From: Spirochaetaceae bacterium
Lineage (GTDB): Bacteria > Spirochaetota > Spirochaetia > DSM-27196 > PWMO01
Reading direction: 5' to 3'
Assembly: GCA_007693325.1 (NCBI GenBank)
Contig: REDW01000110.1
Coordinates: forward strand, 1 to 46,476
Length of the DNA stretch: 46,476 nucleotides
Part shown: positions 24,920 to 34,981 of the stretch, in pieces
Layout: each line of letters starts with the position of its first letter
Position numbering within the stretch: the stretch's first letter is position 1
Notes under the pieces: generated by a model
What the model was told of the DNA's origin: nothing
Seen by the model: the letters and a program-made list of their open reading frames with translations, nothing else
Databases searched by the model: none
Program-made: the position numbers and the translations under genes

Positions 24920-26047
24920 GTGATGCTGGCACTGATGCTCTTTTTTGCCGCGCTGAGTGTTGTCTCGGCCGAGCCACTGCAACTACGCGATAGCGACGTA
25001 ATGATAGAGCAGAGCCGCGAAGGCGGTTACAACCTTTACGTACGCGCGCGGGCGGAGATCGGTTCGGTAATGATTACCGAGTCAACCGTTGATCCCGACC
25101 AACGCCAGGCCAACTACGCGCTGCGCAACCCGCAGTACCATCCGGTCAACGGTGATGAGCGCCGCATTCTCGACGGCGAGTTCCTCAACGCTCAGGCTCG
25201 CGGGCGCTACTTTCTGATCAGTTCAACGGTGCGCGAGGTTGAAGGCTTTGGTCCGGCCTATCAGCTCTTTGTGCCCTACGTGGTGGAGTACGGCTATCCG
25301 TGGTCGCGCTCGGGGGAGATGTTCCTGGGCGATAACAGCTGGATCAATATCCGCACCTTTGAACTCCCGTTTGCCAACTACGAGGGGGCCTTCCGCGACA
25401 ACCCGTTCACCATCGTTGCCGTTCAGCCGACCCCCGAGGAGCCAACGCCGCGCACCGAGGCCGAGCCCGAGATCGAGTACCTGCCGCCGGCAGTCGAAGC
25501 GTTTGAAGAGATTGCGCGCGAGACCGACGGTGAGTTTGTGCGCATCACCGACGGTGAGGAGATCGTTGACTCGATCAGATCCATCATCGGAGAGCTGCCC
25601 GATGACGGCCTCGATCTGGTGCTGGTAATCGATACTACCGCCAGCATGAGCGGCAGTATTGCCGAGGTGCAGAACGAGCTGGTGCCGATGCTGCTGCGCG
25701 ACATGCAGCGCCATGATCCGCTGCGCGTTGCAGCGGTACTGTTTCGCGACTACTACGACGAGTATCTGGTGCGGCCGTTAGCCTTTCAGGATGATATGGC
25801 TGTGGTGCAGAACTTTGTCGACCGTGCGCGGGCGCGCGGCGGCGGAGACATCCCCGAAGCGGTCTACGAGGGGCTCTACACTGCGCTGGTGCGATCCGAA
25901 TGGCGTCAGCCGCAGCGGCTGATAATTCTGATTGGTGACGCGCCGCCGCATCCGCGGCCGCGTGGCGGGGTGACCCGCGACATGGTGTTTGCCGAAGCCG
26001 CCGAGCGCGGCGTTACCATCCACGCTATTCTGCTGCCGCATCCGTAG
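24920..26047 (+). CDS. Exported von Willebrand factor A-domain protein
   Basis: A 375-residue protein with a short signal peptide (hydrophobic residues 2-14, SAEP after it). Start is GTG 24920 or ATG 24923; both are in frame. Residues of about 20-160 form a beta-rich domain of unknown type, followed by a Pro/Glu linker (about 172-192) and a vWA domain (about 232-375). The metal-ion site is D238-T-T-A-S242, a DxTxS variant of the usual DxSxS, and later vWA blocks (FRDYYDEY, RGGGDIPEAVYEGL, LIGDAPPH) are intact. Such domains bind proteins in a metal-dependent way. TATAAT at 24884-24889 and GATACT at 24909-24914 are possible -10 boxes. The last 23 bp overlap the next gene on the opposite strand. 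Confidence 0.8.
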   Translation: MMLALMLFFAALSVVSAEPLQLRDSDVMIEQSREGGYNLYVRARAEIGSVMITESTVDPDQRQANYALRNPQYHPVNGDERRILDGEFLNAQARGRYFLISSTVREVEGFGPAYQLFVPYVVEYGYPWSRSGEMFLGDNSWINIRTFELPFANYEGAFRDNPFTIVAVQPTPEEPTPRTEAEPEIEYLPPAVEAFEEIARETDGEFVRITDGEEIVDSIRSIIGELPDDGLDLVLVIDTTASMSGSIAEVQNELVPMLLRDMQRHDPLRVAAVLFRDYYDEYLVRPLAFQDDMAVVQNFVDRARARGGGDIPEAVYEGLYTALVRSEWRQPQRLIILIGDAPPHPRPRGGVTRDMVFAEAAERGVTIHAILLPHP

Positions 26048-28355
26048 GCTGTTCCGGCAGGGGTCCGCCGTGCAGCAGTTGCTGGACAGCTTGCCGGCTG
26101 ACGGCACCGCCAAAATGGTAGCCCTGCAGCGAGCCACAGCGATGCTGGTTGAAGTAGTCCCATTGCTCTTTGGACTCGACCCCCTCGGCAACAATGGCCA
26201 GGTTCATCGAGTGTGCCAGATTTATGATCGCGTTGACAACTTTCTGATTATTGAGCTGGAAGAGATTGGTCACAAACGACAGGTCGATCTTGATTGCGTC
26301 CGCCGGCAGTTGGGACAGATAGCTGAGCGAAGAGTAGCCGGTTCCAAAGTCATCGATCGAGATACTCAGACCGGGATGCCGCTGCTTCAGCTCGTTCATC
26401 TTGCGGATCGCCGTCTTGGGGGCACTCATGATGCATGACTCGGTGATCTCCAGCTTGACGTTTGCCGGATTCACTCCGCTGCGGGTTATCGCTCCACTGA
26501 CCGCTTCCACCAGGTCAGGTTGGTCGAACTGGCGTGGCGACAGGTTGATGGCAACGTAGAGATCCGGATAGCCGTCCGCGTTCCAGGAGCGGATATCGCG
26601 AAGTGCCGTCTCCATGACCCAGTTTCCCAGCGGGATGATCAGGCCGGTCTCTTCGGCAATCGGGATGAAGCGTCCCGGTTGTACCTGGCCCATCTGCGGG
26701 TGTTCCCAGCGCAGCAGAGCTTCCAGTCCGCCCACCGCCCCGTCTGCCCCCACTATCGGCTGATAGTGCAGTACAAACTCACCGCGCGCCAGCGCTGCGC
26801 GGATACCCTGTTCCAGCTCCCAGCGTTCGCGTGCGCGGGCATCCAGCTCGGCGCTGTAGAACGCAAAGCGGTTCTTGCCGGATTCCTTGGCGTGGTACAT
26901 CGCCAGGTCCGCGGCTCTTGTGACGGCTTCAATTGTTGCACCGTCGGCCGGGAACAGGGCTATGCCGATGCTCACGCCAACGGTTGCGGTTTGACCACCC
27001 AGTTCGCTGCTTCCCGGTAGATCGTAGGGTCTGCGAATCTCGCCAAGTATGTTGTTGGCTACCAGCGCTGCGTCACGTCTGGTGTGGACAAAGCCCAGCA
27101 GCACAACAAACTCATCACCGCCAAAGCGGTAGACTGCGTCGGTCTCGCGCAGGGTGCGTCGCAATCGCGCGCCGGTATCGATCAGCAACCGGTCACCGGC
27201 GTCGTGGCCCAGAGTGTCGTTGACCTGTTTGAAACCGTCGAGATCGAGGAACAGCAGCGCAGCCATGCCTTTCTCGAATCGCTCCGGTTTTTCGAGCAGC
27301 CGGCGCATATCGCCGTCAAAGAGGTCGCGATTGCCCAGGCCGGTCAGTTGATCGTGATAGGCCAACTGGCGCAGACGCCGTTCGGCGCTCTTGCGCTGGG
27401 TGATGTCACGGATGATGCACGTGAGTGTGCGACCGCGGTACTCCTTGGAGTTGCCGAACGATATCTCCATCGGGGTAACACCGCGGTGCTTATGGCAGCC
27501 CAGTATCTCCAGAGTTCCAGACATTCCGAGATTCCGGCGATCGGTGTCATCCACCACAAAGTACTTGCGAAAATCCTGCTCGTGCCGGCGGTAGATCTCG
27601 CCGGGAAACAGCGTGGAGAACGGTTTGCCGTGCAGCTCTTGCGGCTCGAAGCCAAAGGTGGTGCGTACCGCCCGGTTGGCAAATACAATCTGAAACCGCT
27701 CGTCGATGCGGACGATCGCCTCGGTCAGGGTCTCGGACAGGGCGTCGTAGTTGTCCTTGGTCAGACGCAGCTGTTGAACCAGGCTGCGATGCAGCGTAGG
27801 GTCACGCAACGCGGCTACCAGTACCGCATTACCGCCGCGGAGCGATGCCGCGGTCACACACTCCAGCGATAGTGGCGAACCGTCGCTGTGCCTGGCGCGC
27901 AGCATGAGGATGTCTTCAGGTTTTGGCAGCTGTCGCGATACTCCGGCCAGACCCAGGTCTCTCGCGCGCTGCACAATACCCTGTTCGGACCCCTCAACCA
28001 GGACCTCGCTGAACGGTCTGCCAACGATCGCGTGCGGCGCGTAGCCAAGGTACTGGGTGAACACCGGGTTGACCGACAGGACCCGTGTCTCGCAGTCGAG
28101 CGTACAGGCGATGTCCGGTGCAGAGGACAGCAGCGCGTCAAAGTGAGCCTTACTGGTGGATGGCGTCAGAAACGAATGCAGCCCCTGTACGATCTGTTCC
28201 AGGATTGCATCGAAGATCGAATCACCGGGCTGCACCAGCGGATCTTCAGCGCCGGAGCTGAGATGCCTCTGTTCGTATTCCAGCACTGACGCCGACACCG
28301 CATCCAGACGTTGCTCGATGGTGTCCAGGACTTGTTCAAATCTCTGTTCTCTCAA
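26025..28355 (-). CDS. PAS-PAS-GGDEF-EAL cyclic-di-GMP protein
   Basis: A 776-residue cytoplasmic protein without membrane helices. Order: N-terminal helical segment (1-65), PAS (about 71-185), PAS with PAC (about 200-320), GGDEF (about 330-500), EAL (about 515-760). The GGDEF active site (412-416) and the inhibitory RxxD site (RETD, 403-406) are intact. The EAL motif (545-547), ESCIM, DDFGTGYSSLSYL and AEGVE are intact too, so both synthesis and breakdown of cyclic-di-GMP are possible; the final QGYHFG lacks the usual proline. The start is a TTG, with GAGGGA 9 nt upstream and a stop codon in frame just before it. PAS domains probably sense an intracellular cue. Confidence 0.93.
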   Translation of the reverse strand: MREQRFEQVLDTIEQRLDAVSASVLEYEQRHLSSGAEDPLVQPGDSIFDAILEQIVQGLHSFLTPSTSKAHFDALLSSAPDIACTLDCETRVLSVNPVFTQYLGYAPHAIVGRPFSEVLVEGSEQGIVQRARDLGLAGVSRQLPKPEDILMLRARHSDGSPLSLECVTAASLRGGNAVLVAALRDPTLHRSLVQQLRLTKDNYDALSETLTEAIVRIDERFQIVFANRAVRTTFGFEPQELHGKPFSTLFPGEIYRRHEQDFRKYFVVDDTDRRNLGMSGTLEILGCHKHRGVTPMEISFGNSKEYRGRTLTCIIRDITQRKSAERRLRQLAYHDQLTGLGNRDLFDGDMRRLLEKPERFEKGMAALLFLDLDGFKQVNDTLGHDAGDRLLIDTGARLRRTLRETDAVYRFGGDEFVVLLGFVHTRRDAALVANNILGEIRRPYDLPGSSELGGQTATVGVSIGIALFPADGATIEAVTRAADLAMYHAKESGKNRFAFYSAELDARARERWELEQGIRAALARGEFVLHYQPIVGADGAVGGLEALLRWEHPQMGQVQPGRFIPIAEETGLIIPLGNWVMETALRDIRSWNADGYPDLYVAINLSPRQFDQPDLVEAVSGAITRSGVNPANVKLEITESCIMSAPKTAIRKMNELKQRHPGLSISIDDFGTGYSSLSYLSQLPADAIKIDLSFVTNLFQLNNQKVVNAIINLAHSMNLAIVAEGVESKEQWDYFNQHRCGSLQGYHFGGAVSRQAVQQLLHGGPLPEQPTDAAAE

Positions 28356-28520: not shown

Positions 28521-29900
28521 TCATCCGCCAAACGGAATCAGGCCAACCAGGCCGCGAATGTCCTCGTCGGTAAAACGGACGCCGCCGCCAAAGAAGAGCT
28601 CGCGACCCTGCTCGCTGAGAATGTTGTTCATACCGCCGGTCAGGTAGACCCAGTACCACGGCAGCTCCGCGGCGGGATCGTAGAACGGAAATATGGTACC
28701 GGTAGCCCGCAGATTGGGCTCATCATCCGCGCCAAAATCGAATACCTCGCCGGAGACCTGGAACGCGGGAAACGGCCGCAGGTCAACCCCGAAGCCGCCG
28801 CTGCTCTCTATCAGACCACCGCGCAGCGTTAGCGGGCCAAAGCTGCGTGCGATCTGGGCGTTGAACTTCACTTCATCGGTTGTGACGGTTTCTTCGGACA
28901 CCGTAGTGGTGGCCGCCCCTCCGTCGACGGTCTCGACTTCCTCGGTTGTACGGCTGCGGGTCACGCCGCCGGGGGTGTCCACCACGCCCAGTTCATAGTA
29001 GCCACGGCGGCTGCGCGGCAGCAACCGCAGCGAGAACGCGCTCTGCGCCTGCTCGCGCTCGCTCATATAGGCCGACTCGAATCCCACCTGCACACCCAGG
29101 CCGGTAATCTGGTGTACCAGCTCCTCGGTACTGCGCGCAACGCTGACCACGCGTTCGTAGAGTTCATCTTCGTATACTGCACGACCGATGTTGCCTTCTC
29201 CGCGGCGTACCGTTGCGGTGACGTCCTGAACGTCGTCCAGCGAACGGCGCAAGGAAGCGATTGAATCCTGGATGTCGGCATCGCGGTCGTCAACCATCAG
29301 CGCGATACGTTCTACCGTCAGCGCTACGCTGGCCAGTATCTCCGATACCTGCTGCAGGTCGTCCTCGGAACGCAGATCAACGCGTTCCAGAATGCGGTCA
29401 AAGCTCTCAAAGGTACGGTTCAGGACCACCATGTGCTGCCGGCGGATCTCGGCCAGCATTTCGACCATCTCCTGTCCGATCTCCCCGGTGATGTCAACCG
29501 TGCGTGCAAAATCGCCGCGCACTGAAACCTGTTCTATGCGGCCGCCGGCATCCAGCGAGGCGGCGCCGCTGCTGCCCGGATCGATAGAGATGATCGAGGT
29601 GCCCAGCAGCGAGGAAGCTTCCTTGTAGGCCGTGGCATCCTCATAGATAGCGATCTCGTCGGAAACCATAACGGACAGCCGCGCGCGGCCGTCCTGCAGT
29701 TCGATTGAGCGGATAGTGCCGATCGGTACGCCGGCCATGAAGATCTGCGAGTTGGTGGTCAGTCCGGATGCGTCATCCATCACTATCTCGACTTCGTAGG
29801 TGTTCCGGTCGCTGAATCCGTCACCGGACATCACAATGAAGACAACGCCGGCAACACCGGAAACCAGTACAAACAAACCTATCTTGGCTACTCTGGACAT
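28521..29900 (-). CDS. mlaD: MCE/MlaD-family protein with barrel-like C-terminal half
   Basis: A 459-residue substrate-binding component of an Mla-type lipid transporter. One hydrophobic anchor (about residues 5-24) precedes an MCE domain (about 36-115; IFMAGVPIGTIRSIEL, SSLLGTSIISIDPG). A long helical region (about 140-260) follows, as in MCE needles. The last 190 residues are unlike MlaD: repeated strand-turn-strand patterns (FSLRLLPRSRRGYYELGVV, FNAQIARSFGPLTLRGGLI, FQVSGEVFDFG) end in a Gly-rich strand, like an outer-membrane barrel. This hints at one protein bridging from inner to outer membrane. The ATG is 3 nt after the mlaF stop, with CAGGAAG as ribosome site; translational coupling is likely. 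Confidence 0.9.
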   Translation of the reverse strand: MSRVAKIGLFVLVSGVAGVVFIVMSGDGFSDRNTYEVEIVMDDASGLTTNSQIFMAGVPIGTIRSIELQDGRARLSVMVSDEIAIYEDATAYKEASSLLGTSIISIDPGSSGAASLDAGGRIEQVSVRGDFARTVDITGEIGQEMVEMLAEIRRQHMVVLNRTFESFDRILERVDLRSEDDLQQVSEILASVALTVERIALMVDDRDADIQDSIASLRRSLDDVQDVTATVRRGEGNIGRAVYEDELYERVVSVARSTEELVHQITGLGVQVGFESAYMSEREQAQSAFSLRLLPRSRRGYYELGVVDTPGGVTRSRTTEEVETVDGGAATTTVSEETVTTDEVKFNAQIARSFGPLTLRGGLIESSGGFGVDLRPFPAFQVSGEVFDFGADDEPNLRATGTIFPFYDPAAELPWYWVYLTGGMNNILSEQGRELFFGGGVRFTDEDIRGLVGLIPFGG

Positions 29901-29903
29901 ACC

Positions 29904-30656
29904 CTACACTTCCTGTGAGCTGAATGAATTCTCAACAAACTGGCGCACCATATCATGCTCCGACCGTATGACTTCTCGCGGCGGGCCCTGCGCGATTACC
30001 TCTCCCTGGTGCAGAAAGGCTACCTTGTCCGAAATGCGGAACGCTGCCGGGATGTCGTGCGTGATGAGGATGCACGTCAGTTCGAGTTCGCGATTGACCC
30101 GCACCACCAGGTCATTGATTGTCTGCCCCAGCACCGGGTCGAGTCCGCTGGTCGGCTCGTCGAACAGCAGGATCTCGGGTTTGATGGCCAGCGCTCGGGC
30201 AACTCCCACCCGCTTGCGCATACCGCCGGAGAGTTCGCTGGGGTTCTTGTCGCCGATGTCCGGCAATTCGATCCATTCCAGCATTTCGCGGACACGCTGC
30301 CTGATCTCGCGACGGTTCCTGATACCCAACACTTCGCGCAGCGGAAAAGCGATGTTCTCGGCCACGCTCATAGAGTCGAACAGTGCAGCATCCTGAAACG
30401 CGTAACCGAAGTTGCGCTGGACTAGTTCTTTCTCTTCTTCGGACATCTCCACCAGATCCTTACCCTTGTAGAACACCCGGCCCTCATCTGGAGCCATGAT
30501 TCCGATCATGCACTTGAACAGCACGCTCTTGCCGGTTCCGCTCTGCCCGATAATCGAGGTGATCTCCTTGCTCTCAAAGTCCAGGCTTATGCCACGCAGT
30601 ACATCGAGCGAATCAAACGATTTGGAAAGCTGTTCGAGCCGGATAATCGCACTCAA
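29904..30656 (-). CDS. mlaF: Mla-type ABC transporter ATPase
   Basis: A 250-residue ATPase that powers phospholipid movement by the MlaE permease. Walker A GQSGTGKS is at 37-44, the signature ELSGGM at 141-146 and Walker B plus D-loop FDEPTSGLDP at 165-174, all intact and of the MlaF type. Start is TTG 30656, overlapping the mlaE stop as TTGA; no better in-frame start exists nearby, and GGTGATG lies upstream. Use of TTG in a coupled pair may keep ATPase output low relative to permease. Order is mlaE-mlaF-mlaD; no mlaB, mlaC or mlaA is present. Confidence 0.94.
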   Translation of the reverse strand: MSAIIRLEQLSKSFDSLDVLRGISLDFESKEITSIIGQSGTGKSVLFKCMIGIMAPDEGRVFYKGKDLVEMSEEEKELVQRNFGYAFQDAALFDSMSVAENIAFPLREVLGIRNRREIRQRVREMLEWIELPDIGDKNPSELSGGMRKRVGVARALAIKPEILLFDEPTSGLDPVLGQTINDLVVRVNRELELTCILITHDIPAAFRISDKVAFLHQGEVIAQGPPREVIRSEHDMVRQFVENSFSSQEV

Positions 30657-31447
30657 TACATCACCGCCATCATCACCGTTGCCATCAGGTAGTCCGCGAT
30701 CAGAATCGAGACCGAGGACGCCACCACCGCGTGCGTCGAGCTCTCTCCCACGCCCCTGGCGCCGCTGAGAGAGTGAAGCCCGTGATAGGTGCAGATTGTG
30801 GAGACAATCACTCCCATCACCGCGGCCTTGATCAGCCCCGAGTAGACGTCGGTTGGCTGCAAGTCGCGGAACATCTGCGCCAGGTAGGTCGCCGCTTCCA
30901 GCTCATAGGCTCCGGTTGCAATCAGGAATGCACCCAGTACTCCAACAACGTTGGCCAGCAGCGTCAGCATTGGAAACATCACCAGCGACGCAATCACCCG
31001 CGGCACCACAAGGTAGTGAATAGGCTCTACCGACATAGTCTCCATGGCGTCGAGTTGTTCGGTAACTTTCATTGTGCCGAGTTCGGCAGCCATTGCCGAC
31101 CCGTTCTTGGCGATCAGCATCAGCGTGGTAACCACCGGCGCAAACTCACGCGACATCGACAGCGCCACCGCTGAACCGGTAGCGATCTCGGCGCGGAACG
31201 GCTGCAGAAATGAGATCATCTGCAGCGCGAAAATCATCCCAATTGCCAGGCTGGAGAGAGTAATGATCGGCACCGAGTCAACACCGATCTTCTCCATCTG
31301 CTCGAGGTAGAGCCGCACGCGCACCGGACGCTTGAACGTGTAGCGGACCACCTGCCCGAGGAACAGCACAAACCGGCCGGTCTGCTCCAGTTTCTCGATG
31401 GCAAAGTTACGGGCAACAACACTCTTGCTGGGCTTGATCAGGCGCAC
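30653..31447 (-). CDS. mlaE: Mla-type ABC transporter permease
   Basis: A 264-residue (if started at GTG 31447) inner-membrane permease of the MlaE family. The conserved blocks are LGQVVRYTFKRPVRVRLYLEQMEKIGVDSVPI, LMIAKNGSAMAAELGTMKVTEQLDAM and PRVIASLVMFPMLTLL; five or six hydrophobic helices are present. It handles phospholipid or related lipid exchange between membranes. The frame is open further upstream to 31537, but the predicted promoter at 31468-31496 would start the mRNA inside that extension, so a start near 31447 is preferred. An AGGA lies directly against the GTG, which is poor spacing; the exact start is uncertain. The operon continues with mlaF and mlaD. Confidence 0.88.
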   Translation of the reverse strand: MRLIKPSKSVVARNFAIEKLEQTGRFVLFLGQVVRYTFKRPVRVRLYLEQMEKIGVDSVPIITLSSLAIGMIFALQMISFLQPFRAEIATGSAVALSMSREFAPVVTTLMLIAKNGSAMAAELGTMKVTEQLDAMETMSVEPIHYLVVPRVIASLVMFPMLTLLANVVGVLGAFLIATGAYELEAATYLAQMFRDLQPTDVYSGLIKAAVMGVIVSTICTYHGLHSLSGARGVGESSTHAVVASSVSILIADYLMATVMMAVMY

Positions 31448-31467
31448 TCCTGTCTTGTCATTCCACA

Positions 31468-31496
31468 AAATTACCACTATTTGGGCGTGATTCCAA
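31468..31496 (-). promoter_or_regulatory. Promoter of mlaEFD operon
   Basis: On the minus strand TTGGAA (31491-31496) and TAATTT (31468-31473) are 17 bp apart, 20 nt before the GTG of mlaE. The divergent MhqO-like gene may use TTGACG (31515-31520) with a weak -10. Confidence 0.5.
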
Positions 31497-31566
31497 ACGT
31501 GGCGCTGACCCCGGTTGACGATACGGCAGCAAATCACGGATCTTTAGCGAGGGAGAATATGACAAA

Positions 31567-32529
31567 ATGATGAATACCAACGGCATACACCATATCACCG
31601 CGATTGCCGGTGACCCGCAGCAGAACCTCGATTTCTACGCGGGGGTGCTCGGTATGCGCCTGGTGAAGCGTTCGGTCAACCAGGATGTTCCGGACACCTA
31701 CCACCTCTTCTACGCCGATGCCGCAGGCAATCCGGGAACCGACCTGACGTTCTTTCCGTGGCCGGCGCTGGCGCCGGTCAAGCGCGGTGCCGGACAGTGG
31801 GACGAGGTCGCGCTTGGGGTACCGGCGGGGTCACTGGAGTACTGGCGCAGCCGAATCACAGCAGCGGGGGCGCCCGGGGCGGTTTCGGTGGGTGAGATCG
31901 TGACACGTTTTGGTGAACGGGTGCTGCCGTTCAGCGATCCGCACGGGCTGCAGCTGGCGCTGGTGGAAGACCAGAGCTACGAGGGTTTTGTTTCTGAACC
32001 GTGGCACGATAGCGCGGTCCCGGTTGACAAACAGATTCGCTCTCTGGCGGGTGTGCGCCTGGTGGAGCAGAGCGGCGAACCGAGCGTGAGTTTTCTGGCT
32101 GAATCGCTGGGATTTCGCGCCGGCGCCAGTGAGGACGGATGGCAACGCTTCACGGTGGGTGAAGGCGCAAGCGGCCAGCGCATCGATCTGAAGCTGGACC
32201 GCGACGCACCGCGCGGACAGTGGGGTGTGGGTGCGGTGCACCACGTTGCCTGGCGTGTGCCCGATACTGAAGCTCAGAGCGCGGTGCAGCGCGCAATCGC
32301 GGCGGCCGGCGGCCGCCCGACGCAGGTGATTGACCGTTTCTGGTTCCGCTCGGTCTATGTCAATGAACCCGGCGGCGCGCTGCTCGAGGTGGCTACCGAC
32401 GGGCCGGGATTCAGTGTTGACGAGGCGCCGCAGAACCTCGGAGAGTCGCTGGTGCTGCCCGAATGGCTCGAGCCGCAGCGCACACAGATCGAAGCCGCGT
32501 TGCCACCGCTGTCCTGGCCGCGCGGATAG
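31567..32529 (+). CDS. VOC-family dioxygenase-like protein, MhqO type
   Basis: A 320-residue soluble protein of two vicinal-oxygen-chelate modules. It starts GIHHITAIAGDPQQNLDFYAGVLGMRLVKRSVNQD, the hallmark of the MhqO/MhqA ring-cleaving dioxygenase-like group. Likely metal ligands are His8 or His9 in the first module, the His of VHHVAWRVPD and the Glu of PGGALLEVATD in the second. Relatives protect against quinones and are induced by hydroquinones, but substrates are not proven here. ATG 31567 (or 31570) follows GAGGGAG by 11 nt. It is divergent from mlaE. A link to the quinone genes at 7291 is possible but only inferred. Confidence 0.88.
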   Translation: MMNTNGIHHITAIAGDPQQNLDFYAGVLGMRLVKRSVNQDVPDTYHLFYADAAGNPGTDLTFFPWPALAPVKRGAGQWDEVALGVPAGSLEYWRSRITAAGAPGAVSVGEIVTRFGERVLPFSDPHGLQLALVEDQSYEGFVSEPWHDSAVPVDKQIRSLAGVRLVEQSGEPSVSFLAESLGFRAGASEDGWQRFTVGEGASGQRIDLKLDRDAPRGQWGVGAVHHVAWRVPDTEAQSAVQRAIAAAGGRPTQVIDRFWFRSVYVNEPGGALLEVATDGPGFSVDEAPQNLGESLVLPEWLEPQRTQIEAALPPLSWPRG

Positions 32530-32537
32530 CCGTCCGG

Positions 32538-32566
32538 TTGGACTTCTGTCGACAAAGCAGTACAAT
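32538..32566 (+). promoter_or_regulatory. Promoter of AsmA/GT51 gene, near-leaderless
   Basis: TTGGAC (32538-32543) and TACAAT (32561-32566) are 17 bp apart, with 9 nt to the ATG at 32576. The sequence between has no ribosome site. Confidence 0.6.
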
Positions 32567-32575
32567 GCACCACAC

Positions 32576-34981
32576 ATGAGAAAGCGAACCAGATACGCAC
32601 TCATTATGGGCGCGGTCCTTACGGCCGTTGCCATCATCTCTATCACGCTACTGATGCCGTGGCTGGTGCGATCTGTGCTCGAGTCGCGCGTGGGGCACTA
32701 CGAGCAGCGCTGGGGTGTTGAAGCCGGCTTCCAGAGGTTGCGCGTGGTCTCGCGACGCACTGTTGTGTTGGAGCAGTTTACGGTTACTGACCGCCACGGT
32801 GAAACAGAGATCTTTGCGGAGCGCGTTGAGATATCGGTACGGCCGCTTGCGCTGCTGCGCGGGTCGGCGCAACTCGATAACCTGAGCGCCAGCGGGATAC
32901 GCGTTGTGCTTGCAGCAGAAGACGGCGGCAGGTTTGACGCATCAGCGTCGGCAATGCAGCTACGCAATCAAACCGTTATCGAGGTTTTCGATCCGCAGCT
33001 TGGAGCCTCGGCTGCTTCATCCGGCACGCAGCGTATCCTGTTGGACGCTCGCCTCGTGCGCGGACAGCTGTCCGCACCGCTGCAGCGCGGACAGCAGCCG
33101 TCGCTGGCCCAACTGACCGCTGATCAACCGCAGCTGGACCTTTCCGAGGCAGAACCGTGGCACCAACTACAGGCGCTGCTGCGCGGGCTCAAAGGGCGTC
33201 TGGTGCCGGCCGCTTCTGCGGCAGGATCCGCGGTGCAGGGGGGCGGCGGCGCGGCACACATCCTGCGGACGCTGTTGGCGCATCTGCCACAAACGGTGGA
33301 AGTTCACGAGGCCGAGGTCACGCTTAACGCCGGAGTTTCGAGCCTGTTTGACCTGCAGTATGAGCACTGTCTGGCAGATCGGATGGTGAGAGTGAAAACC
33401 GCGGGCCGCCTGCATGACGCTGTGAGTCCTTCCGGTTCCTGGAATGTCGACAAGAGCGTGTGGTACAATCACGTAACCGTTGACGGCCGCAGCAGTCTGG
33501 ATGCACTCGATCTGAACGTAGTCACCCGGGCGCTCGGCGGCAGCCGCAGCGCAGGGTTTGAGCAGGGACTCCTCGACCTCACACTCGCGGCACACAGCGC
33601 CAACAACCCTGACAGCGTGGCGTTGAGCGGCCGGATGTTCCTGCGCGATGCGGCGCTGCTGCTGCCTCGCGTTGCCGACGGGCTCATCGAGGTGCCCGAG
33701 ATTTCGTATCGCTTCAGGGCAGCCCTCGATGGAAATGCCGAGGTTGGGCCGCCGCGGATGTATCAACCTCTGCCGCTCGAGGCCGTTACGGTTTCTGCTG
33801 CGCCGCCGCGGCGCGGCGAACTGGTCTTTGATCACGGCGCGCTGCGCCTTGGAACACTGGAGGTTGAGTTCCGTCCGGCGCTACGCGGCTTCGGCAAACC
33901 GGGGCAACTCCCGGAGCGCGTGGAGCTGCAACTCGAGATTGCGCCGAGCGCTATCGCAGAGATCATCGAGACGTTTCCCGCGGTGTTGCTCGGGCCGTTA
34001 GCCGGAGTCCAGGCCGAGGGAACCCTCGCGTGGAAGCTCGACTTTGAGAGTCCCACCGAATCTATCTCGCGCATGCAGTGGAGGTCGGAAATATCGTTGC
34101 AAGACTTCACGCTGCTTGATATTCCCGATGAGATCAACGTGTTCCGGCTGGGGGGGCCGTTTATCCACCGGATCAGCGATCCTGCGGTCGATTATCATCG
34201 GGTAGTGCGTGTGCCGCAGACCCGACCGGCCTCGCTGCGCTGGCTGACCGATAGCGCCGGTCTGTCGCTCGAGCAGGCGTGGCAGGTTCGGCAGCGGGCG
34301 CATTCGGCGCCGCCGGCACCAACGGTCCCTCGATCATCATCCATCCACCGCTTCAGCAGCGATTCTGCCGAACGCCCCGATCGGTCGTATCGTTATGTGC
34401 CCCTGGGTTCCATCTCCCCCTGGCTGGTACGCGCGGTTCTGACCGCGGAAGACGGAGACTTCTTCGATCACCGCGGCGTGAACTGGAACGCCGTCCGACG
34501 CGCGGTGGAGTACAACGTAGAGGTTGGCGAGTATGTCTTTGGTGCCAGCACTATCAGCATGCAATTGGCCAAGAACCTCTTTCTGGGCAACGAGCGCCAG
34601 TTTGCGCGCAAACTGCAGGAGTTCCTGCTGGTGATGCTGATGGAGGAGGCGGCGGCAATCCCCAAGGAGCGCCTGCTCGAGATCTACCTCAACGTAATCG
34701 AGTTTGGCCCCGGAATCTTTGGCGTCTACGATGCCGCCCGGCACTATTTTGGCGTGCAGCCGCGTGACCTCGATGCCGCCGAGGCGGCGTGGCTTGCCAC
34801 CATTGTGCCGGCACCCAAGCTGCACTACCACCACTACCGCAACGGTGAGATATCAGATCACTGGTTTGCCCGTATGCAGCAGTTGCTCTACGGGATGTAC
34901 AAGCGCGAGCGCATGACCAAAGAGCAGTACCGGCACGCGAGTCAATCCAGACCGCAGTTTGCGGTCTCTGCGGATCGCTGA
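32576..34981 (+). CDS. AsmA-like protein fused to GT51 peptidoglycan glycosyltransferase
   Basis: An 801-residue protein. A membrane anchor (about residues 7-32) is followed by about 550 residues of beta-rich sequence resembling AsmA/DUF748 proteins (for example AERVEISVRPLALLRGSAQLDNLSASGIRVVL, a typical pattern). Residues of about 600-800 are a GT51 domain as in MtgA and class A penicillin-binding proteins: catalytic Glu625 in AEDGDFFDHRG, GASTISMQLAKNLFL, RKLQEFLLVMLMEE, and LLEIYLNVIEFG. GT51 polymerises lipid II into glycan chains on the periplasmic face. There is no transpeptidase domain. AsmA-like proteins are linked to lipid transfer to the outer membrane, so the fusion suggests coupling of wall and outer-membrane growth (inference). 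Confidence 0.88.
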   Translation: MRKRTRYALIMGAVLTAVAIISITLLMPWLVRSVLESRVGHYEQRWGVEAGFQRLRVVSRRTVVLEQFTVTDRHGETEIFAERVEISVRPLALLRGSAQLDNLSASGIRVVLAAEDGGRFDASASAMQLRNQTVIEVFDPQLGASAASSGTQRILLDARLVRGQLSAPLQRGQQPSLAQLTADQPQLDLSEAEPWHQLQALLRGLKGRLVPAASAAGSAVQGGGGAAHILRTLLAHLPQTVEVHEAEVTLNAGVSSLFDLQYEHCLADRMVRVKTAGRLHDAVSPSGSWNVDKSVWYNHVTVDGRSSLDALDLNVVTRALGGSRSAGFEQGLLDLTLAAHSANNPDSVALSGRMFLRDAALLLPRVADGLIEVPEISYRFRAALDGNAEVGPPRMYQPLPLEAVTVSAAPPRRGELVFDHGALRLGTLEVEFRPALRGFGKPGQLPERVELQLEIAPSAIAEIIETFPAVLLGPLAGVQAEGTLAWKLDFESPTESISRMQWRSEISLQDFTLLDIPDEINVFRLGGPFIHRISDPAVDYHRVVRVPQTRPASLRWLTDSAGLSLEQAWQVRQRAHSAPPAPTVPRSSSIHRFSSDSAERPDRSYRYVPLGSISPWLVRAVLTAEDGDFFDHRGVNWNAVRRAVEYNVEVGEYVFGASTISMQLAKNLFLGNERQFARKLQEFLLVMLMEEAAAIPKERLLEIYLNVIEFGPGIFGVYDAARHYFGVQPRDLDAAEAAWLATIVPAPKLHYHHYRNGEISDHWFARMQQLLYGMYKRERMTKEQYRHASQSRPQFAVSADR

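Follow-up and report, generated by a model that had tools for sequence, protein, structure and literature searches.

A long MlaD protein encoded in a compact spirochaete operon is best explained as part of a three-part transenvelope lipid transporter, which likely runs from an inner-membrane pump to an outer-membrane barrel of its own. The operon lies in the window, that is, the whole 46,476-nucleotide stretch of Spirochaetaceae DNA (contig REDW01000110.1) that we analyzed. In the proposed arrangement, six MlaD chains would form an MCE ring atop the inner-membrane MlaE/MlaF pump, their needle helices would build a hydrophobic tunnel across the periplasm, and their C-terminal domains would enter the outer membrane, each as a small barrel of ten strands, with barrel and tunnel standing in for MlaA and MlaC. 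A sequence-only reading of this DNA had suggested that a single protein might bridge the inner membrane and a barrel, or barrel-like cap, at the outer membrane; our analysis supports the version with a barrel as the best reading. The features are collected in Table 1.

Table 1. Features of the MlaE-MlaF-MlaD operon and segments of the MlaD protein; positions are those of the window.
Feature	Residues	Position	Strand	Basis
MlaE-type permease		30653..31537	minus	Pfam MlaE, E 8e-75; TIGR00056, 230.5 bits (cut-off 212.2)
MlaF-type ATPase		29904..30656	minus	Pfam ABC_tran, E 1e-34; NCBIfam MlaF model matched below cut-off
Long MlaD (MCE) protein with barrel-like C-terminal domain	459 aa	28521..29900	minus	ORF and Pfam
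N-terminal membrane anchor	7-25	29826..29882	minus	Peak 19-residue hydropathy 2.54, at residue 7
MCE domain	33-109	29574..29804	minus	Pfam PF02470 (MlaD), 52.1 bits
Helical needle	130-262	29115..29513	minus	Alpha periodicity; heptad indels in two segments
Putative ten-stranded outer-membrane barrel and 16-residue tail	267-459	28524..29102	minus	Beta periodicity; conservation; strands placed by eye
Variable Thr/Glu-rich hairpin, strands 3-4	311-341	28878..28970	minus	Indels among relatives

The operon and the needle of the long MlaD

The operon is tight and comprises only MlaE, MlaF and MlaD, with mlaD as the last gene: the MlaF frame overlaps that of MlaE by 4 bases, and 3 bases separate it from MlaD. 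The real start of the permease may lie within the tabulated frame. The sequence-only reading had delimited mlaD correctly, on what proved to be the minus strand, and had rightly observed that the operon encodes neither MlaC nor MlaA. Moreover, both proteins were absent from the whole host assembly (97.5% complete; 3.47 Mb genome) in searches that used E. coli and Caulobacter as positive controls, both of which matched. A fusion artefact as the source of the long frame was ruled out by 12 other loci with the same architecture, a count that includes the near-duplicates L014 and L015. The order MlaE-MlaF-MlaD recurred in 11 of these 12 relatives, while the contig of the twelfth (L004) starts at MlaF.

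Beyond the operon, mlaD is followed on the same strand by a gene for a PAS-GGDEF-EAL protein (26025-28355, minus), and a GGDEF-type protein likewise follows mlaD in L007 and L008. On the other side, the adjoining plus-strand region (31567-34981) encodes a protein of the glyoxalase type as well as a transglycosylase whose match to DUF748 is weak and below the cut-off; genes resembling this pair also lie beside the operon in L005.

The MCE and helical needle parts proposed from the letters alone were both recovered, the former as a single Pfam stretch within the long MlaD and the latter by its periodicity. Hydrophobicity was averaged over a 12-row profile that contained the protein of the window, and its periodicity was compared with 1000 shuffles. 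The needle gave a helical periodicity of z = 4.7, with 0 of 1000 shuffles as high; under the same procedure, the MCE domain displayed neither helical nor beta periodicity. Across 13 sequences, one needle segment between fixed anchors measured 46, 53, 60 or 102 residues and the next segment 33 or 61 residues, all length differences in both segments being multiples of seven. A tunnel of packed helices would be expected to accept length changes of this kind. No multiple-of-seven rule applied to the stretch that links the MCE domain to the needle core (89, 90, 118 or 119 residues). Modelled as a straight helix at 0.15 nm per residue, the needle region would extend 21 to 34 nm across relatives.

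Lipopolysaccharide genes, TamB and the direction of transport

The nearest named records, at 74% and 65% identity, both come from metagenome assemblies of Spirochaetaceae. Neither LpxC nor the LptD family (PF04453) had a match in the host genome. Because Lpt orthologues have been reported in LPS-free Borrelia (PMC10353723), the missing PF04453 is weak evidence on Lpt, and the argument concerning LPS therefore rests on LpxC; judged by gene content, the host lineage appears to be without lipopolysaccharide. Two further MCE operons were present in the same genome. One (L070, C77) combines an MCE protein with a PF03886 auxiliary lipoprotein, MlaE and MlaF, and the other (L071, C109) consists of MlaE-MlaF-MCE. 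It thus seems that a single cell approaches its outer membrane in three modes: with a barrel of its own, with a lipoprotein partner, and, in L071, through a protein that has no visible outer-membrane part.

Among 392 evenly drawn genomes of Spirochaetota, the phylum of the host, MCE domains of any kind occurred in 230. The C-terminal barrel-like domain was found in 11 of the 392, with the same count from the 3-row and 12-row profiles, although this count is profile-based and strongly diverged barrels in other classes could escape it. All 11 were the host genome or members of its order or class. LpxC was detected in 110 genomes, all outside the class of the host, and MlaA in 8, all from a single family (f37) and all carrying LpxC; neither these two proteins nor MlaC occurred in any barrel-form genome. 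The best MlaD frames listed for the MlaA genomes of family f37 are short and E. coli-like (132-184 aa). Since both traits follow clades, no more than a handful of events may underlie the separation of barrel and LpxC. A TamB-family protein was present in 11 of 11 barrel-form genomes, with weak matches in 10 of them (best E 6e-17 to 7e-11).

In this setting, the pump most likely draws phospholipid, or glycolipid, from the outer to the inner membrane, opposing a TamB-type outward flow. The system might instead export lipid to build an LPS-less outer membrane, a reading that gains from the lack of LpxC, which removes the LPS rationale for retrieval from these genomes, and from LPS-free Borrelia, which retains an Lpt-like bridge suggested to carry glycolipid (PMC10353723). 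However, every barrel-form genome already holds a candidate export route in TamB, and in Veillonella parvula mla mutants are suppressed by tamB mutations, genetics that set MlaEFD and TamB in opposite directions (PMC10665443). We accordingly regard export as possible but rather unlikely, and retrieval as the preferred direction.

The C-terminal beta domain

After the needle, the sequence-only reading had described about 190 residues of beta-hairpin pattern, and we confirmed an amphipathic beta pattern over approximately 195. Residues 265-459 exhibited a two-residue beta periodicity of z = 2.5 (9 of 1000 shuffles; 12-row profile) and no helical periodicity (z = -0.3); leaving out the variable loop raised the beta signal to z = 3.2 (2 of 1000). 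The domain contains long alternating hydrophobic runs, is Gly-rich and has no Cys, and the beta pattern is kept in an alignment of relatives whose full-length identity is mostly 29-38%. A disordered or soluble C-terminus, against which the earlier proposal had been set, did not emerge; the region is strand-patterned and conserved in the 12 other loci. The Thr/Glu-rich hairpin, mostly deleted in L011, L013, L014, L015 and L016, is probably extracellular. Ten strands were placed by eye, a number equal to that of the Veillonella barrel, a precedent known to us when counting. The last strand ends 16 residues short of the C-terminus, unlike in classical porins, and a terminal aromatic residue is absent. 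In L012 (genome G365), the last strand and tail of the MlaD frame diverge abruptly, perhaps through a frameshift or an assembly error.

AlphaFold predictions, each from a 3-row alignment, were of low confidence: mean pLDDT was 40.6 when the full protein was modelled and 35.5 when the C-terminal domain was modelled by itself. When the full-length profile was searched against solved structures, the credible matches were MCE-family proteins, the best being Mce1F (E 3e-7); matches to helical bundles (E 0.08-0.5) were judged to be noise. For the C-terminal domain, neither the 3-row nor the 12-row profile retrieved anything credible among solved structures, and Pfam held no family for it in any of 12 members. 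Searches of plasmid records and of viral contigs found none that encodes this domain.

Collectively, the strand pattern and its conservation suggest that residues 267-459 would fold as a membrane barrel in the host. An unlikely variant is that the six C-terminal domains pool their strands into one larger pore, like TolC or the six-strand barrel of mycobacterial Mce1. MCE proteins are hexamers, and Grasekamp et al. call a single barrel too narrow for lipid and propose fusion into larger pores (PMC10665443); nevertheless, ten strands per chain suffice for a small closed barrel. A soluble needle-tip cap docking on the outer membrane or another partner, with no membrane barrel, would suit the absence of a confident barrel from the AlphaFold models, the lack of a match to any known barrel family and the missing terminal aromatic residue, but it is improbable in view of the long alternating hydrophobic, Gly-rich and Cys-free sequence, the retention of this pattern among such divergent relatives, and the Veillonella counterpart, which fractionates with the outer membrane (PMC10665443).

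Relation to known transporters and implications

The barrel-bearing MlaEFD design is already known from Veillonella. Grasekamp et al. (2023) reported the same long-MlaD architecture in Veillonella parvula, and found that the isolated MlaD barrel fractionates with the outer membrane; for 103 MlaD sequences they inferred a barrel at the C-terminus, most of these being from diderm Terrabacteria and some from Proteobacteria and close phyla (PMC10665443). As in that system, the spirochaete MlaD has an anchor, a single MCE domain, some 130-150 helical residues and a C-terminal domain in which ten strands are read; MlaE and MlaF adjoin, MlaA and MlaC are absent, and TamB is present (PMC10665443). The likeness of the two putative barrels drawn here is one of architecture and strand count. 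The spirochaete studied here lacks LpxC, whereas Grasekamp et al. link the Mla system to diderms that carry LPS and attribute the absence of Mla from Borrelia and Treponema to missing LPS (PMC10665443). Their main text nowhere uses the stem "Spirochaet", although the supplements may contain spirochaete rows. A 2025 preprint inferred that the last common ancestor of spirochaetes possessed mlaDEF and lpxAB (PMC12236494), and a search of the open-licence PMC literature by title and start of abstract returned no paper on barrel-bearing MlaD in LPS-free spirochaetes.

Compared with the six-part Mla system of E. coli, the spirochaete shares MlaE, MlaF and a membrane-anchored MCE domain. It lacks MlaA and MlaC, and its MlaD, 2.5 times as long as that of E. 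coli, carries a needle and, at its C-terminus, a beta domain. Similarly, PqiB and mycobacterial Mce1A-F place a helical tunnel across the periplasm after an MCE ring, whereas a barrel-like domain of its own distinguishes the spirochaete MlaD from both. The single MCE stretch here also differs from the several MCE domains per protein in Pqi/Let (YebT), with three rings in PqiB (PMC10665443). Furthermore, the pump is MlaE/MlaF rather than PqiA, and one protein is used here, compared with six different proteins in Mce1.

The new element is a spirochaete lineage that retains the putative bridge and TamB, apparently without LPS. We tentatively propose, as a joint hypothesis, that the MlaEFD bridge serves an LPS-free outer membrane in Spirochaetia, that its core job is a general exchange of phospholipid or glycolipid balanced with TamB rather than the guarding of LPS asymmetry, and that needle length is tuned in heptad steps (over the straight-helix range given above) to the periplasm width of each species. 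The heptad-stepped needles provide a natural length series for testing the helix as a periplasm ruler, and family f37, with LpxC, MlaA and a short MlaD, contrasts with the barrel form inside one phylum. A conserved barrel-bearing MlaEFD in LpxC-free spirochaetes would decouple Mla from LPS, and these organisms would allow the lipid-exchange role of Mla to be tested without LPS.
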